Shown here one piece after another: positions 23,999 through 33,306 of a stretch of DNA of 54,239 nucleotides. How positions within the stretch are numbered: the first letter of the stretch is position 1; each line of letters starts with the position of its first letter. The stretch comes from an uncultured Verrucomicrobiales bacterium (GTDB taxonomy: Bacteria > Verrucomicrobiota > Verrucomicrobiia > Verrucomicrobiales > Akkermansiaceae), in NCBI GenBank assembly GCA_937934595.1, contig CALGZA010000003.1:1-54239 (forward strand), read 5' to 3'. A model generated the notes under the pieces. It was not told where the DNA came from, ran no database searches, and was given only the letters and a program-made list of their open reading frames with translations. The position numbers and the translations under genes were made by a program.

Positions 23999-24985
23999 AT
24001 GAAAAATCAATGGATCTCAACACTCACCGCAGCAATCACCCTCTGCATAGCAACAGCAAATGACAAACCAAACCCAGTTGAAGTAGGCATCGTCAAATGG
24101 CAAAGAAACTACGCCGAATCTCTAACCCAAGCTCAAAAATCAAACAAACCCATCTTCGCTCTATTCCAAGAAGTCCCAGGCTGAGGCGGCTGCCAACGGT
24201 TTGGTCAAACCGTCCTCACTAACCCACTCCTAGTCGACGTCATCGAATCAAAATTCATCCCCCTACTCATAATCAACAACAAAAAAGGCATCGACGCCCA
24301 AATTCTAAAAAAATTCAAAGAAAAAGCATGGAACTACCAAGTCATGAGATTCTTCGATAAAACAGAATCAGACATCATACCCAGACACGGCAAAATCTGG
24401 ACCATGGAAAAACTCGTCCCTCGTATCGAAAAAGTCCTAACCACTAAAAAAATCCCCATCCCAGAAACACTCAAACTCCTAAAACTAGACTCCCAAAAAA
24501 ACAAACACAACACCATCGCACTCGCCATGCACTGCTTCTGGACAGGCGAAATGCACCTCGGCGCCATCGATGGAGTAGTCACTACAGAAGCAGGATTCTA
24601 CGACAAAAAAGAAGTCACACTCGTAACCTACCACACAGAAACCATCGACCTAAAAACCCTCATACAAAAAGCAGCCAAAGTCAAATGCGCCAACAAAATC
24701 TACCTAAAAACTGACCAAGAAATCAAACTAGCCAAATCATTCACCAAACTAAAAACTGACCAACTCATCATAAAAAACTACACACCAGCTAAAATCGCCG
24801 ACCAGAAAAAACAACTCGCAGACACCCCATTCGCTGGCCTCAAGCTCACCCCATCACAAGCCACAAAAGTCAACGCCTTCGCACGCAGCGCCCCCAAAAA
24901 AGCACAAACCTACCTCACCCAAAAACAACGACAACTCATCCAGCCCAACAAACCAAAAACAACAAAACAAGAAATACCCAACTAA
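23999..24985 (+). CDS. Probable selenoprotein: thioredoxin-like U-x-x-C domain plus MsrA-like domain (TGA recoded at codon 62)
   Basis: Conceptual translation runs 328 residues from the ATG to TAA if the TGA at 24182-24184 is read as selenocysteine. A signal segment (about 1-20) precedes a thioredoxin-like domain: 'QKSNKPIFALFQEVPG', then Sec62-Gly-Gly-Cys65, then 'QRFGQTVLTNPLLVDVIESK' and 'FIPLLIINN'. This resembles what NCBI calls the VPGUxxT thioredoxin-like (seleno)protein family (recalled, not checked), here with Cys as the fourth residue. From about residue 170 a second domain resembles peptide-methionine sulfoxide reductase A: 'AMHCFWTGEMHLGAIDGVVT' with Cys179, then 'EAGFYDKKEVTLVTYHTETI'. 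The reading frame, codon use and family similarity continue unbroken across the TGA, and a SECIS-like hairpin follows it. Likely an envelope thiol/selenol oxidoreductase. Confidence 0.85.
24182..24218 (+). promoter_or_regulatory. Bacterial SECIS-type hairpin directing Sec insertion at TGA 24182
   Basis: After the TGA come 18 nt and then an apical loop GGUC (24203-24206) closed by a perfect 7-bp stem, ACGGTTT (24196-24202) with AAACCGT (24207-24213). TGAGG (24182-24186) can also pair with CCTCA (24214-24218), giving a lower stem containing the UGA. In E. coli fdhF the UGA is likewise followed by 18 nt and a GGUCU loop, whose G and U are contacted by SelB. All of the hairpin is coding, as bacterial SECIS elements must be. 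Confidence 0.82.
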
Positions 24986-25042: not shown

Positions 25043-25495
25043 ATGAAAAACAACCTGCCAGCCCTCTGCACCACCATCATCATCGCATCATTCCCACTCA
25101 TCACCCTCACAAGCTGCACCCCAGGAAACACCACAAACAATAACCAAACACAAACCACAATCCACACCAAAATCGACAGCACCGCCAAGATCATAAACGC
25201 AAAATACGGCACCAAATACCAAATCTACGGAAACACCATCGCCAAATTCCCACACTTTGACCTATCACACTTCAGCCAACAAACCCTAACATCCACCAAA
25301 GACGCCATCCACACCTACGAGATCACCAGCAAAGACGGATTCGCCAAAACACACATCACCTGGAACCCCAGTAACCCCGAAAGAAAACACTTCTCCATAG
25401 AAGGACTCCACTTCTACTACCACAGTAACACCCAAGGATCCATTAACATCTACATGCCCCCACAACTACTCGCCCTAAATCACCCTAAACCATGA
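25043..25495 (+). CDS. Putative lipoprotein of unknown function
   Basis: The 150-residue product has a lipoprotein signal: a basic start, a hydrophobic stretch and the lipobox LTSC with Cys25 as the lipidated residue. An Asn/Thr-rich linker follows, then a small domain with 'IINAKYGTKYQIYGNTIAKF' and 'SIEGLHFYYHSNTQGSINIY'. No family was recognised. It lies 57 bp after the selenoprotein gene and its TGA stop overlaps the ATG of the next gene by four bases (ATGA), implying translational coupling with the DUF3817 protein. Confidence 0.7.
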   Translation: MKNNLPALCTTIIIASFPLITLTSCTPGNTTNNNQTQTTIHTKIDSTAKIINAKYGTKYQIYGNTIAKFPHFDLSHFSQQTLTSTKDAIHTYEITSKDGFAKTHITWNPSNPERKHFSIEGLHFYYHSNTQGSINIYMPPQLLALNHPKP

Positions 25496-25788
25496 AATTC
25501 AACTCACCAGTCAGCTACCTCCGCGTCTTCAGTCTACTAGACGCACTCTCCTTCATCTACCTCCTATACTGCTCCATCTACCTCAAACACATCATGGGAG
25601 ACGATGCCGCCATCAACACACCTGGCAAGATCCACGGAGTCATCTTCTGCTTCTTCGGACTCGCCCTCCTCATATCCACCATCATAAAAAACTGGTCCTT
25701 CAAAACCTTCCTTCTCATCGGCCTATCATCCCTCATCCCATTCGCACCATTCTGGGTAGAAACATGGCTCAAAAAACAAGACAACTAA
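25492..25788 (+). CDS. DUF3817 family membrane protein
   Basis: The 98-residue protein has three hydrophobic helices and the DUF3817 pattern: 'YLRVFSLLDALSFIYLLYC' at the start, a conserved 'KIHGVIFCFFGLALLIST' helix, and a 'SLIPFAPFWVETWLKKQ' end. The family is a small integral membrane domain of unknown function (YdzA-like). It overlaps the lipoprotein gene by 4 bp and is followed after 15 bp by another tiny membrane protein, so the three form a compact unit behind the selenoprotein gene. Confidence 0.85.
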   Translation: MKFNSPVSYLRVFSLLDALSFIYLLYCSIYLKHIMGDDAAINTPGKIHGVIFCFFGLALLISTIIKNWSFKTFLLIGLSSLIPFAPFWVETWLKKQDN

Positions 25789-29022: not shown

Positions 29023-32000
29023 TCAATGATCCGCAACCCTGAAGAAAAACTCAAAACTACCCCTACTAGCTTTCGCTATCAAGGTAACCCTATCCCCTAC
29101 TATAAGCCTATCCACACTAACCGTCGTTCCATCCGCTATCGCATCCCTTCCGTCAGCTTTATACCAGTTCACCAAATCATCTGACCACTCATACTGAATA
29201 GCCCCATTCAGTGCTGCTCCAAGGGATCTATGCTCAATACGGTATTCACCTTTAACAATATCTTGCGAGACTAACTTCACATCCAGTGATGAGGCATCCG
29301 GTAATACAGGTCTCGCAGAACCTATTACAGCACTTGCACTCACTACACGACTCGGACGTGATGTATGGAACAATGCCGTCACCTCCGCCGCACTCAGTTT
29401 CCTGTCATATAAATACACCTCATCTAATGTATCAGCAAAACGTTGCCTACCACCCTGATAATTACCAATACACTGAACATTAGTATCCACCGTAAAACCA
29501 GTAACAGTCCCCACCAATTTACCATCAATATAATAATCCACCTTGTTAGCAGTGCCTACCGCAGTAACCATACGCCATATTCCTTCTTCTCGCCTAAGCT
29601 CCATCCCACTTGCTTTATGACCAAAGTGAAATAAACCCAAATCACTCGCATCATAATTAACAATGACATGGTGATGCCTAGACCCTCGGAACAACGTACG
29701 CCACCCATTTTCATCAAGTCCCTCATACCAAGCAGAAACGGTCCAGCTACCTCCCAAAGGTATACCAATATGATCTAATTTACTATTGTCATTAACAAAT
29801 GAAGCACCTCCTTGAGAAATGCCCGCACTCGTAAAGTCCACTCCATTAGCCATCAGATCATACCCGTTGCCACTATCATCTTTTCCTATATTATTAACGT
29901 CATTAAAAGAGTAATACGCTTTCACCCCCTCGGGTAAAACATGCTGAACAACGTCATTCCCATTCCCAGACTCCACATCATTATCCTGTAACTTTCTCGC
30001 ACTGGCTTTATACAAGTCCGTAATTTCCGCAGCATTTAGTTGCCTACTGTAGAGATAAACCTCGTCCAGCGTGTCAGCAAATCGCTGACCACCTCCCTGG
30101 AAATTACCTATACATTTAACATCGGAATCTACTGTAAATCCAGTCACACTCCCTACAAAACGACCATCAATGTAATACTCCACCTTATTCGCCGTCCCTA
30201 CCGCAGTTACCATATGCCACACCCCTACTTCACGCTTAAGATCCATCCCACTACCTCTATGCCCAAAACGAAATAAACCCAAATCATCTTCATTGAAATT
30301 AACAATCACATGATGAAATCTAGTTCCTCGGAACAACGTGCGCCATCCGCCCGTTCCTAAACCCTCATACCAAGCAGAGACCGTCCAGCTCCCTCCCAAA
30401 GGAATACCAGAATGCTCTAATTTACTATTTCGGTTAGTGAAAGACGCCCCACCCTTGGATCCACCCACATTCGTAAAGTTCACATCAGATGACTTCAAAT
30501 TAAAACCATTACCACTATCATCTTTACCTACATTATTACTATCATTAAACGAATAATAAGCGGTATAACCTGGAGGAACTACTACCCCATCATCCATATC
30601 TTCACCAAAGTCACCACCCCCAGCACTCGCTATATAAAGACCCGCTACCTCTTCTGAGGATAACCCACGGTCATACAGGTATACTTCATCCAGTGTATCT
30701 GCAAAACGCTGCCCACCATTTTGAAAATTACCAATACACTGAACATCAGAATCTACTGTGTGACCACTCACAGTCCCAACCAACTTACCATCTATATAAT
30801 AGTCAACTTTGTTAGACGTCCCCACCGCAGTTACCATGCGCCAGACCCCATCTTCACGTCTTAAGTTCACACCACTATCCCTATGACCATTACGGAATAA
30901 ACCAAGGTCTTCTTGACTGAAATTAACAATCACATGATGGTAGCTCGCACCTCTAAATAAAGTCCTCCACCCGTCTGAATCCAAACCCTCAAACCATGCA
31001 GATACTGTCCAGTTCGCACCCAGCCTAATACTCGGATGAACAAGCTTACTATCATTAGAAGTAAATGCCGCCCCCCCTCCAGAACGACCAGAAGCCGTGA
31101 AGTTCACTTCTGAAGACATAAGATCATGCCCATTCCCACTATCATCTTTACCAATATTTTTGCTATCACTAAACGAATAATAGGCCTTATAACCTGATGG
31201 CACTCTGGCTCCTGCTAACCCACCACCATCAGTTTCACCTAGTTTAACGTCTCTAGCATCAACTAGACTCTGTAAAGCCGCTAATGTATTCGGATTGTTC
31301 CTATGCCTCCCTGGATAGGTGTAGTCGAAGTTATTATCATCCTCATTAATAGAGTTTAACACCCCAATAAACAGCTGTATCTCAGCAACCGTCCCCTCTT
31401 CTCTCAATGACTTAATCGCGCTATTTTTCTTTTCTCCAAATGGACTATCTAAAAAGTATCGTATTAGTTTTGTATACATAGAAGCATCTCTATTTACTAA
31501 TTTTTTCAGAAAAAACTTCCCACCTGAAAAGGTGTTTATAAGCCTGAAATTATAAAATTGATCAGGAAACAATCGATCATCCATCATGAAATCAAGTATC
31601 GAAAAATACTCCTCTTCTCTCAGCTTCTGTTTAAAACGACCACCCAGTAAACACTCAGCAGCCCATGAACGATAACGAACATGCTCACCCGGGTCATTCA
31701 TTATACCTGTAAGTTCAACCATCAAACGCTCCGCTACAGTTGAAGTTAAACTATTTTGAGAATATCTTAAAAAATCATACGCTCCCACACGGTCAATAAG
31801 GGAATCAGAAACTAGAGACTGCTCTACCCATCTTATATATTGTGCGTTTGTTGCATAACTACTTGCTGCCTTAGCTGACTCCCTTCGTAAATTAGGATTG
31901 TAATTATTTCTATGCCTCCAAACCCAAGCAAAGTCCTTAACCGTAGTTGCTGATAAATCCTCAAAAGCCAAATTCACCTCCGTATCAGAAAACCTAAGCC

Positions 32001-33306
32001 GTGAATCAGCAGCACGTCCAGTAATTAACAACTTGTTACGTACATGAGATAATGACAATATATTAGCAGGTATCTCACTTAAGGCACTATAACCTAAACC
32101 CTTTGAGGAAAAATGACGTGCACCGCCATCCCATCGGCGCTGATTCGTTCTCAACCAATGAGTCTCATTAAAAAATAGTGTAGATGCTCTATTTCCAGCT
32201 AAAGCCACTCCTAAACCTGTCCATATCTGACCAAAATAGGGACCTGTATGCCCTATCAATAACTCATCTTTACCCGCTATCGATAAACCGATGAAATATC
32301 GAGCGTCTTCTATTTCCCCCTCCAAAGCTAATGCTATTGCACACATTGCAGCTTTTCCATTCGAGGAAAAACCCGAGTCGTTGATGGTTTGACTAGTTAC
32401 TGAATAACCCACATCCCCGCCAACCATAGACTTAATATACCGTGTCACTCTGCGGTTCTGCTCTGTAATATGTGGATCCACCACTCCGCATTTCTCCGCC
32501 AACAACATCGAAATGTGTCCCTGTAACGTTGTCACTGTAATCTCACCATACCCCACTTGCTTAACAGGACTAAATTCATTATTAGGACTAGGTTCAACAT
32601 CCAAAAGATTCTCTACTATCGGACCATGCCCCCATCCACCGGATCCATTCCTATGCTTATGCAGCGTCTCACTTAACCTACGTATCATGGGTAATACAGC
32701 AGCGTCCCTTGTCATCAGATAATACTCACATAACGCTATATTGCGATACGCATTCGACCAGTTAGCATAACCCGCTATCTTAGGCGCAGTCTTAATATCT
32801 AAAGTAGATTTTGCTCTTTGGATTGCTCTAGCGTCTCCAGTAGACAGTAGTGCTATTTCATTAAGTGATCGCATATCCGTTCTCCCCCTATACTCAGTAT
32901 TTAAGATATAACCTATCGCATCACTTATCAGAGTATCACATTTTCCACAGTTAAATGGAGCAGATGCACTCCAACTTCCCTTCCGCGGAACCTGTAATGA
33001 CACCTTGCGCCCATTGGTCATAGTTATAGTCAATGCCCCACCATTAAAACCAGATTCAAGCCGGTTAAAATCACTCCCAAAATAACTCTTAGAATTAAAA
33101 CCCCTTAAATCTACTTCTTCACCTACAAATAATTTACCCGCAGCAGGCGAGCCAGGATAAACTGTGATTATCTTATTATCTCGCGTCTCAAAACCCAGTG
33201 GCCCCCAAAAATATTCACCCGGCCCAGCTTTGAGATTTAACACCATAATCAAACTATAAATACATAATTTGAATAAAAAAAACCTGCGTAAATAATTTTC
33301 CATCAT
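29023..33306 (-). CDS. Giant exported protein: PDZ-like region, helical toroid and three LamG domains
   Basis: This 1427-residue protein begins with a signal peptide (about 1-27). Residues about 35-105 look PDZ-like ('IITVYPGSPAAGKLFVGEEV'). Residues about 120-650 are helical with repeated 'NGSGGWGHGP', 'VTTLQGHISMLLAEKCG' and 'HTGPYFGQIWTGLGVALAG', recalling alpha-toroid (squalene-cyclase-like) folds and the DUF6288 group. Three LamG/concanavalin-like domains of about 210 residues follow (starting near 699, 911 and 1126), each opening 'GY.AYYSF.D..N.GKDDSGNG'. A C-terminal beta module with 'YEWSDDLVNW' ends the protein and resembles the tail of the M6 protease. It is probably cell-surface or secreted; ligand unknown. 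Confidence 0.78.
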   Translation of the reverse strand: MMENYLRRFFLFKLCIYSLIMVLNLKAGPGEYFWGPLGFETRDNKIITVYPGSPAAGKLFVGEEVDLRGFNSKSYFGSDFNRLESGFNGGALTITMTNGRKVSLQVPRKGSWSASAPFNCGKCDTLISDAIGYILNTEYRGRTDMRSLNEIALLSTGDARAIQRAKSTLDIKTAPKIAGYANWSNAYRNIALCEYYLMTRDAAVLPMIRRLSETLHKHRNGSGGWGHGPIVENLLDVEPSPNNEFSPVKQVGYGEITVTTLQGHISMLLAEKCGVVDPHITEQNRRVTRYIKSMVGGDVGYSVTSQTINDSGFSSNGKAAMCAIALALEGEIEDARYFIGLSIAGKDELLIGHTGPYFGQIWTGLGVALAGNRASTLFFNETHWLRTNQRRWDGGARHFSSKGLGYSALSEIPANILSLSHVRNKLLITGRAADSRLRFSDTEVNLAFEDLSATTVKDFAWVWRHRNNYNPNLRRESAKAASSYATNAQYIRWVEQSLVSDSLIDRVGAYDFLRYSQNSLTSTVAERLMVELTGIMNDPGEHVRYRSWAAECLLGGRFKQKLREEEYFSILDFMMDDRLFPDQFYNFRLINTFSGGKFFLKKLVNRDASMYTKLIRYFLDSPFGEKKNSAIKSLREEGTVAEIQLFIGVLNSINEDDNNFDYTYPGRHRNNPNTLAALQSLVDARDVKLGETDGGGLAGARVPSGYKAYYSFSDSKNIGKDDSGNGHDLMSSEVNFTASGRSGGGAAFTSNDSKLVHPSIRLGANWTVSAWFEGLDSDGWRTLFRGASYHHVIVNFSQEDLGLFRNGHRDSGVNLRREDGVWRMVTAVGTSNKVDYYIDGKLVGTVSGHTVDSDVQCIGNFQNGGQRFADTLDEVYLYDRGLSSEEVAGLYIASAGGGDFGEDMDDGVVVPPGYTAYYSFNDSNNVGKDDSGNGFNLKSSDVNFTNVGGSKGGASFTNRNSKLEHSGIPLGGSWTVSAWYEGLGTGGWRTLFRGTRFHHVIVNFNEDDLGLFRFGHRGSGMDLKREVGVWHMVTAVGTANKVEYYIDGRFVGSVTGFTVDSDVKCIGNFQGGGQRFADTLDEVYLYSRQLNAAEITDLYKASARKLQDNDVESGNGNDVVQHVLPEGVKAYYSFNDVNNIGKDDSGNGYDLMANGVDFTSAGISQGGASFVNDNSKLDHIGIPLGGSWTVSAWYEGLDENGWRTLFRGSRHHHVIVNYDASDLGLFHFGHKASGMELRREEGIWRMVTAVGTANKVDYYIDGKLVGTVTGFTVDTNVQCIGNYQGGRQRFADTLDEVYLYDRKLSAAEVTALFHTSRPSRVVSASAVIGSARPVLPDASSLDVKLVSQDIVKGEYRIEHRSLGAALNGAIQYEWSDDLVNWYKADGRDAIADGTTVSVDRLIVGDRVTLIAKASRGSFEFFFRVADH
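29350..31215 (-). repeat. Three tandem LamG-coding repeats of about 640 bp
   Basis: Units at about 29350-29935, 29990-30570 and 30620-31215 encode the LamG domains of the giant protein. The same strings recur in each, such as 'GASFTNRNSKLEHSGIPLGG' versus 'GASFVNDNSKLDHIGIPLGG', and 'ADTLDEVYLYDR' at each end. Similarity is high at nucleotide level as well (for example cgccatatattcc- and cgccacacc-type variants), indicating recent duplication and possible recombination between units. Confidence 0.75.

Follow-up and report, generated by a model that had tools for sequence, protein, structure and literature searches.

A very probable selenoprotein gene of the OS_HP5 family predicted to join an exported thioredoxin-like domain to an MsrA-like domain

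The window, by which we mean the whole stretch of 54,239 nucleotides analysed here from an uncultured Verrucomicrobiales bacterium, contains a gene whose in-frame UGA at 24182 is very probably a selenocysteine (Sec) codon, and which we therefore regard as very probably a real selenoprotein gene. Judged by profile score, the gene is a further member of the existing selenoprotein family NF041383/OS_HP5. Its predicted product combines a thioredoxin-like (Trx) domain carrying the Sec with a compact MsrA-like domain carrying a conserved cysteine (Table 1). We consider it likely that this product is an exported Trx plus MsrA-like selenoprotein acting as a self-contained reductase of methionine-S-sulfoxide or a related sulfoxide.

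Table 1. Features of the selenoprotein gene, with coordinates in the window
Feature	Coordinates	Strand	Basis
Predicted selenoprotein gene, NCBIfam NF041383 (VPGUxxT type 2 / OS_HP5)	23999..24985	+	343.2 bits, cut-off 275
Probable export signal MKNQWISTLTAAITLCIATA, hydrophobic N-terminus	23999..24058	+	By eye; low pLDDT across most of residues 1-22
Thioredoxin / DsbH / DsbD-gamma-like domain, about residues 25-153	24071..24457	+	Thioredoxin_7 and VIA-align, Z about 13-14.7
In-frame UGA, predicted Sec62 of V-P-G-U-G-G-C (EVPG before U)	24182..24184	+	Sec/Cys in 81/81 full-length family sequences
Cys65, partner in the UxxC pair	24191..24193	+	Cys in 71/81 full-length sequences, 34/34 Sec members
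SECIS-like hairpin, 7-bp stem, GGUC loop 18 nt past the UGA	24196..24213	+	Folding, synonymous-codon null, family comparison
Possible closing stem UGAGG/CCUCA enclosing UGA and hairpin	24182..24218	+	-11.2 kcal/mol; rival fold -14.8
Compact MsrA-like domain, about residues 169-317	24503..24949	+	VIA-align, hhalign; PMSR below cut-off
Cys179 of M-H-C-F-W-T-G-E, predicted equivalent of the MsrA catalytic Cys/Sec	24533..24535	+	Cys 65, Sec 15, Gly 1 of 81; aligned to GCFW
Glu205, placed by alignment on the active-site Glu of MsrA (inferred to be Glu55 in the C. oremlandii enzyme)	24611..24613	+	Invariant 15/15; alignment
Cys230, candidate resolving Cys	24686..24688	+	Co-occurrence with Cys65, confounded by kinship

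Translation of the gene gives a frame of 328 codons closed by TAA, in which the TGA at codon 62 is the sole internal stop. This bears out an earlier, sequence-only reading of the same DNA, which had described one long frame interrupted by TGA alone and had foreseen that ordinary annotation would report a 61-residue peptide and a 213-residue protein; the window's ORF list has the same two pieces, 61 codons up to the TGA and a separate 213-residue ORF starting at 24344. TGA terminates five of the 36 window ORFs chosen by length as likely genes, so UGA is a normal stop here and the recoding would be local. A changed genetic code is ruled out by the same count. The hydrophobic N-terminus indicates that the product is probably exported.

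The match to NF041383 spans positions 1-286 of the 287-position model and, at 343.2 bits, exceeds the curated cut-off of 275, for which reason a new selenoprotein family was rejected. In the part of the 2026 review available to the comparison, the family appears as 'VPGUxxT family thioredoxin-like protein (hypothetical protein OS_HP5)', with the motif VPGU and one Sec (PMC13188914); an excerpt of a second review lists OS_HP5 with neither domain nor motif (PMC9312934). The window protein has the Sec after VPG at codon 62, while its fourth residue is Cys65 and not the Thr of the family name. Since the curated criterion of NF041383 is a score, that Thr is no criterion of membership. The sequence-only reading had seen in the UxxC a departure from families of the UxxT type, and so a new variant, and here it fails: all 34 full-length Sec members are UxxC, and none of the 106 sequences covering the site, out of 115 distinct ones, has Thr65. 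Among the full-length members sampled, nothing distinguishes the window protein. The 'probable new-variant selenoprotein' of that reading thus survives as a selenoprotein, through the Sec machinery, the SECIS-like hairpin and the Sec/Cys conservation in 81/81, and not as a new variant. A search for the type 1 family NF041382 returned no match at E <= 1e-60 in the 377 genomes of the phylum of L031 (Myxococcales), and the controls equally returned none, which makes the result uninformative on the UxxT name.

These counts come from genome samples that overlap and are spread unevenly over bacteria. Proteins above the NF041383 cut-off were found five times in 12 genomes of the window's own genus, 16 times in 260 of its family, ten times in 387 of its phylum, 32 times in 392 of the phylum of L026 (Planctomycetaceae) and 16 times in the 377 of the phylum of L031. 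Together with 18 added stretches, 126 stretches matched a family profile built in the analysis; removal of 11 duplicates left the 115 distinct sequences, comprising 81 of full length (window included), 23 with the Trx half only, six with the MsrA-like half only and five other partial ones. Counts at positions 62, 65 and 179 are taken over the 81. At position 62, 34 sequences have Sec and the remaining 47 have Cys, the outcome that the sequence-only reading expected of an alignment of homologs at codon 62 when it made Sec the leading residue of a thioredoxin-type UxxC. Position 65 holds Cys in 71 sequences, among them every one with Sec62, and otherwise Val (nine) or Ala (one); the Cys62 sequences divide into 37 CxxC and ten CxxV/A.

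Relatives in named genomes give a similar picture, with TGA at the same codon in four of 15 (two Rubritalea, one Verrucomicrobiales, one Planctomycetaceae), Cys in ten and one fragment that lacks the region. Both Rubritalea proteins are identical to proteins of two genomes of the window's genus (L021 to L067 and L022 to L068), and we therefore call the host Rubritalea-like. A quick tree built without the four tested columns, with 17 of its 78 inner branches starred and 35 open, requires position 62 to have changed at least 11 times and position 179 at least three times. On viral contigs, 21 stretches matched a pattern and none encoded a relative.

The gene's flanks in the window include a UvrD/Rep-type helicase and an LptC-like protein, the latter directly downstream (25043-25788, +; 20.4 bits, below its cut-off of 38) and followed by a DUF3817 protein. 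An ORF of 1427 residues lies further along at 29023-33306 (-). Around L021 lie, among others, a TPR protein, Lnt, Lit, LpxC/FabA and a quinolinate phosphoribosyltransferase, and a family scan of these two neighbourhoods found no shared neighbour partner.

The Trx half matches Pfam PF13899 (Thioredoxin_7) at 35 bits, above the gathering cut-off of 27. An AlphaFold model built from 15 sequences reaches a pLDDT of 89.2 and a pTM of 0.83, and VIA-align of this model matches residues 31-153 to 3f9u (Z 14.7), DsbH (2ju5, Z 13.6) and DsbD-gamma (2fwe, Z 13.4). About residues 25-153 are accordingly predicted to share the fold of DsbH, DsbD-gamma and AGR-type thioredoxin-like proteins (Z about 13-14), from which the window protein differs in having Sec-x-x-Cys and a different context.

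The sequence-only reading recognised this thioredoxin-like half and overlooked the second domain, which is MsrA-like and contains the conserved Cys179. Residues 166-317 of the model match MsrA in both VIA-align and Foldseek, the best VIA-align match being C. oremlandii MsrA (4u66; Z 15.6, rmsd 2.7, 147 aligned). The assignment is further supported by hhalign against a profile of seven MsrA-type proteins from these loci (98.7%, E 4.2e-16), which places Cys179 on the catalytic Cys/Sec of GCFW and Glu205 on the Glu of the H-x-E motif. Pfam PF01625 (PMSR) reaches 20.0 bits, below its gathering cut-off of 23.7, and for this reason we name the domain MsrA-like rather than MsrA. The segment with the Pro-x-Tyr of MsrAs, which we take to be that of Tyr47 of C. 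oremlandii MsrA, is absent and appears as an alignment gap in the window domain; around Gln89, Tyr90, His137 and Tyr140 of the same enzyme the alignment is unreliable.

C. oremlandii MsrA, a 1-Cys enzyme that is natively a selenoprotein, shares its fold, the C/U-F-W motif and the active-site Glu with the window domain. In that enzyme Glu55 lies in the active site and the C-terminal helical domain (145-209) is essential for activity (PMC4333827). The fold match of the predicted model extends to its residue 208-210, which suggests that the helical domain has a counterpart in the window protein. The two differ in that C. oremlandii MsrA lacks a Trx domain and relies on glutaredoxin for its recycling (PMC4333827), and in that the MsrA-like domain of the window protein is the shorter one, with Cys instead of Sec at the catalytic place. 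We also note that the window's own genome has a separate MsrA-type protein, named by motif and alignment, with a UGA in G-U-F-W-G (L094:820-1521, -, contig C42), and that a relative of it in genome G240 (L095) likewise has UGA in this motif.

Evidence on the MsrA-like site comes from Planctomycetota, in which 15 sequences of the full-length set of 81 show a second in-frame UGA precisely at the codon of the MsrA-like catalytic residue, in M-x-U-F/Y-W (L120, L122, L123, L131, L133, L134, L136-L139, L144-L147 and L149; L151 is partial). All 15 of these Sec179 sequences carry Sec62 too, most with a hairpin of their own behind the second UGA, and one of them, L122, scores 387.6 bits against the NF041383 model. 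All but one of the 81 have Cys or Sec at position 179, which together with the second UGA in 15 points to redox chemistry at the site. The family as described in the available part of PMC13188914 has one Sec, whereas some sampled members have two UGA. Two Sec in OS_HP5 proteins are undescribed in the parts compared of PMC13188914, PMC9312934 and PMC4807772 (on planctomycete selenoproteins). As far as those excerpts go, neither the double-UGA members nor the Trx-MsrA reading is found in the reviews PMC13188914 and PMC9312934; database records may already annotate two Sec.

The candidate resolving Cys230 is found in 56 of the 71 full-length sequences with Cys65 and in none of the ten without it (Fisher 1.7e-6), which is the pattern that two resolving thiols would give. 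On the tree this co-occurrence reduces to just two independent pairs on well supported branches, a number with which significance is unreachable, and Sec62 and Sec179 form one independent pair, too few to inform.

Most full-length members carry the two halves as one fused protein. A Sec-Trx half that instead stops after about 160-200 residues occurs in genus g204 and in part of the g1 and g202 genomes (e.g. L070, L071, L083, L084, L086). Within the window's own family, separate halves or a lone Trx half are seen in L083-L093 (except the Cys form L090), L070, L071 and L158-L161, and in L072, L164 and L165. The last three are MsrA-like halves on a different contig, in genomes G396, G546 and G578, and that of G396 starts with its own hydrophobic leader; the other split genomes gave no separate MsrA-like half at E <= 1e-30. 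The split forms indicate that the halves are linked, yet that the Trx half can be free-standing. The 23 Trx-half-only sequences include some that are broken and some with other C-termini, and L082 (1495-2316, -) keeps Sec62, has lost Cys179 and has an MsrA-like half that looks degenerate. These cases suggest that the Trx half can act without the MsrA-like site.

A free-standing Trx half is also what would be expected if the protein were a selenoprotein of another kind, namely a thiol:disulfide oxidoreductase that is exported and in which the MsrA-like half has degenerated into a scaffold or a domain for binding substrate. This reading, which we hold to be unlikely, would further accommodate an MsrA-like half that is shorter than MsrA and falls below the PMSR cut-off, and a genome that already has a separate MsrA-type gene in L094; it is at odds with the Cys or Sec retained at position 179 in all but one full-length sequence, with the second UGA at that very codon, and with a Glu205 that is invariant in 15 of 15. 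We favour the sulfoxide reductase over the non-reductase reading.

The selenoprotein assignment itself is supported by the Sec machinery. In the window's own genome, of 3.15 Mb and 95.9% completeness, selA (510 bits), selB (301) and selD (375) are all above their cut-offs, and a tRNA-Sec (selC) scores 57.1 bits against a gathering score of 47, so that all four genes for which the sequence-only reading had suggested a search are present. The selD gene (L010, contig C6) has an in-frame TGA of its own, in C-G-G-U-A-S, and SelD is probably itself a selenoprotein. Of the 80 genomes tested from the 102 listed, 46 have a Sec member and 34 have Cys members only; selB exceeded the curated cut-off in 42 of the former, among them all 15 with double-Sec members, and in 14 of the latter (Fisher 1.5e-6, uncorrected for kinship). 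The four Sec genomes in which selB was not found above the cut-off are G390, G394, G578 and G1227; G390, 82% complete, has a selB fragment of 207 residues at 238 bits, and completeness is 93% for G394 and 65% for G578.

Behind the UGA, the arms ACGGTTT (24196-24202) and AAACCGT (24207-24213) enclose the loop GGTC (24203-24206), exactly the perfect 7-bp hairpin with a GGUC loop 18 nt after the UGA that had been described from the sequence. The spacing and loop are, we presume, those of E. coli fdhF. The pairing of TGAGG (24182-24186) with CCTCA (24214-24218), which had been proposed to close the hairpin around the UGA, is available. This hairpin is the best qualifying one in a test against a protein-preserving null, where the encoded protein is fixed and synonymous codons are drawn from the gene itself (-6.1 kcal/mol, z -3.2, p 0.020). 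Bacterial SECIS elements are recognised by a hairpin shortly after the UGA with a G in a small apical loop (PMC1088965), and the window hairpin has both features, though it is not the minimum-energy fold. The 38-nt segment instead folds best as a CCAA/TTGG hairpin at -14.8 kcal/mol, vs -11.2 kcal/mol for the SECIS-like hairpin with closing stem, and this competition counts against a simple SECIS reading. An Rfam scan of the window gave 0 matches at gathering score.

Across the family, hairpins are associated with the UGA at both sites. Scored against synonymous-codon shuffles of each sequence, hairpins at the first site have a mean z of -1.84 in 56 Sec sequences (28 at p<=0.05) vs -0.14 in 50 Cys sequences (4), and those at the second a mean z of -1.89 in 15 Sec sequences (8) vs 0.11 in 72 Cys sequences (4); Mann-Whitney tests on z give p 1.4e-10 and 9.0e-8, respectively, uncorrected for kinship. 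Individually, half of the Sec sequences fail p 0.05. Five inner pairs can form in the window register, with the loop 18 nt after the UGA, in 5/56 Sec and 0/50 Cys sequences, in the register one base further in 19/56 and 2/50, and in the register of the second UGA in 13/16 and 1/72. Several stem pairs have changed on both sides between members, and the register varies by clade, other Sec members having a later hairpin with its loop 22-27 nt past the UGA. One Sec member, L133, has no qualifying hairpin at the first UGA, and with registers varying in this way no one stem is conserved throughout the Sec members. That the TGA is a true stop, left by a pseudogene, a sequencing error or two short genes, is very improbable. 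Ordinary annotation does give 61 and 213 residues, TGA does end five of 36 chosen window ORFs and another fold is lower in energy than the SECIS-like one; against these points, relatives in other genomes and in a second phylum share the TGA at this codon, the site holds exclusively Sec or Cys in 81/81, the Sec machinery is complete and the hairpins are tied to the TGA.

The Sec coding signals, family, domains and conserved residues above were computed; from them we infer export, substrate, donor, enzymology and the sequence in which electrons move. In the proposed mechanism, SelB and tRNA-Sec would read the UGA at 24182 as Sec, aided by the downstream hairpin. Cys179 would take the sulfoxide oxygen and become a sulfenic acid, which Cys230, where present, would resolve to a disulfide. 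The Sec62/Cys65 domain could then reduce this disulfide and so recycle the MsrA-like site, itself being re-reduced by a membrane donor of the DsbD/CcdA type. More tentatively, and with the balance of our judgement falling slightly short of it, the whole of NF041383 may be two-site, self-recycling exported sulfoxide reductases with Sec at the Trx site; in one Planctomycetota lineage Sec would occupy the MsrA site too and electrons would pass from selenium to selenium within the chain, Cys65 and Cys230 would be the resolving residues, and the window protein would be a single-Sec form.

The working model nearest to such an arrangement is Neisseria PilB; it has, to our knowledge, no Sec, and an additional MsrB domain sets it apart from the window protein. 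Like the window protein, PilB has a Trx-like domain ahead of MsrA in one chain, and in the periplasm DsbD reduces this N-terminal domain, which in turn serves the Msr domains (PMC6210582). Within the molecule, MsrB alone is served efficiently, the MsrA domain being reduced between molecules (PMC6210582), and this slightly lowers our confidence in the fuller explanation.

With this gene, a selenoprotein family that is known but uncharacterised gains one more member. For OS_HP5, hypothetical in the available text of two reviews, the comparison yields a function open to testing, that of a Trx domain joined to an MsrA-like one. Nature has in effect run an experiment in Planctomycetota, where the second UGA singles out Cys179 as a redox site, and the occurrence of the halves both fused and split ties the two together. 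If the proposal is true, the family would provide a single-chain model of tandem selenium use in oxidative repair outside the cytoplasm.
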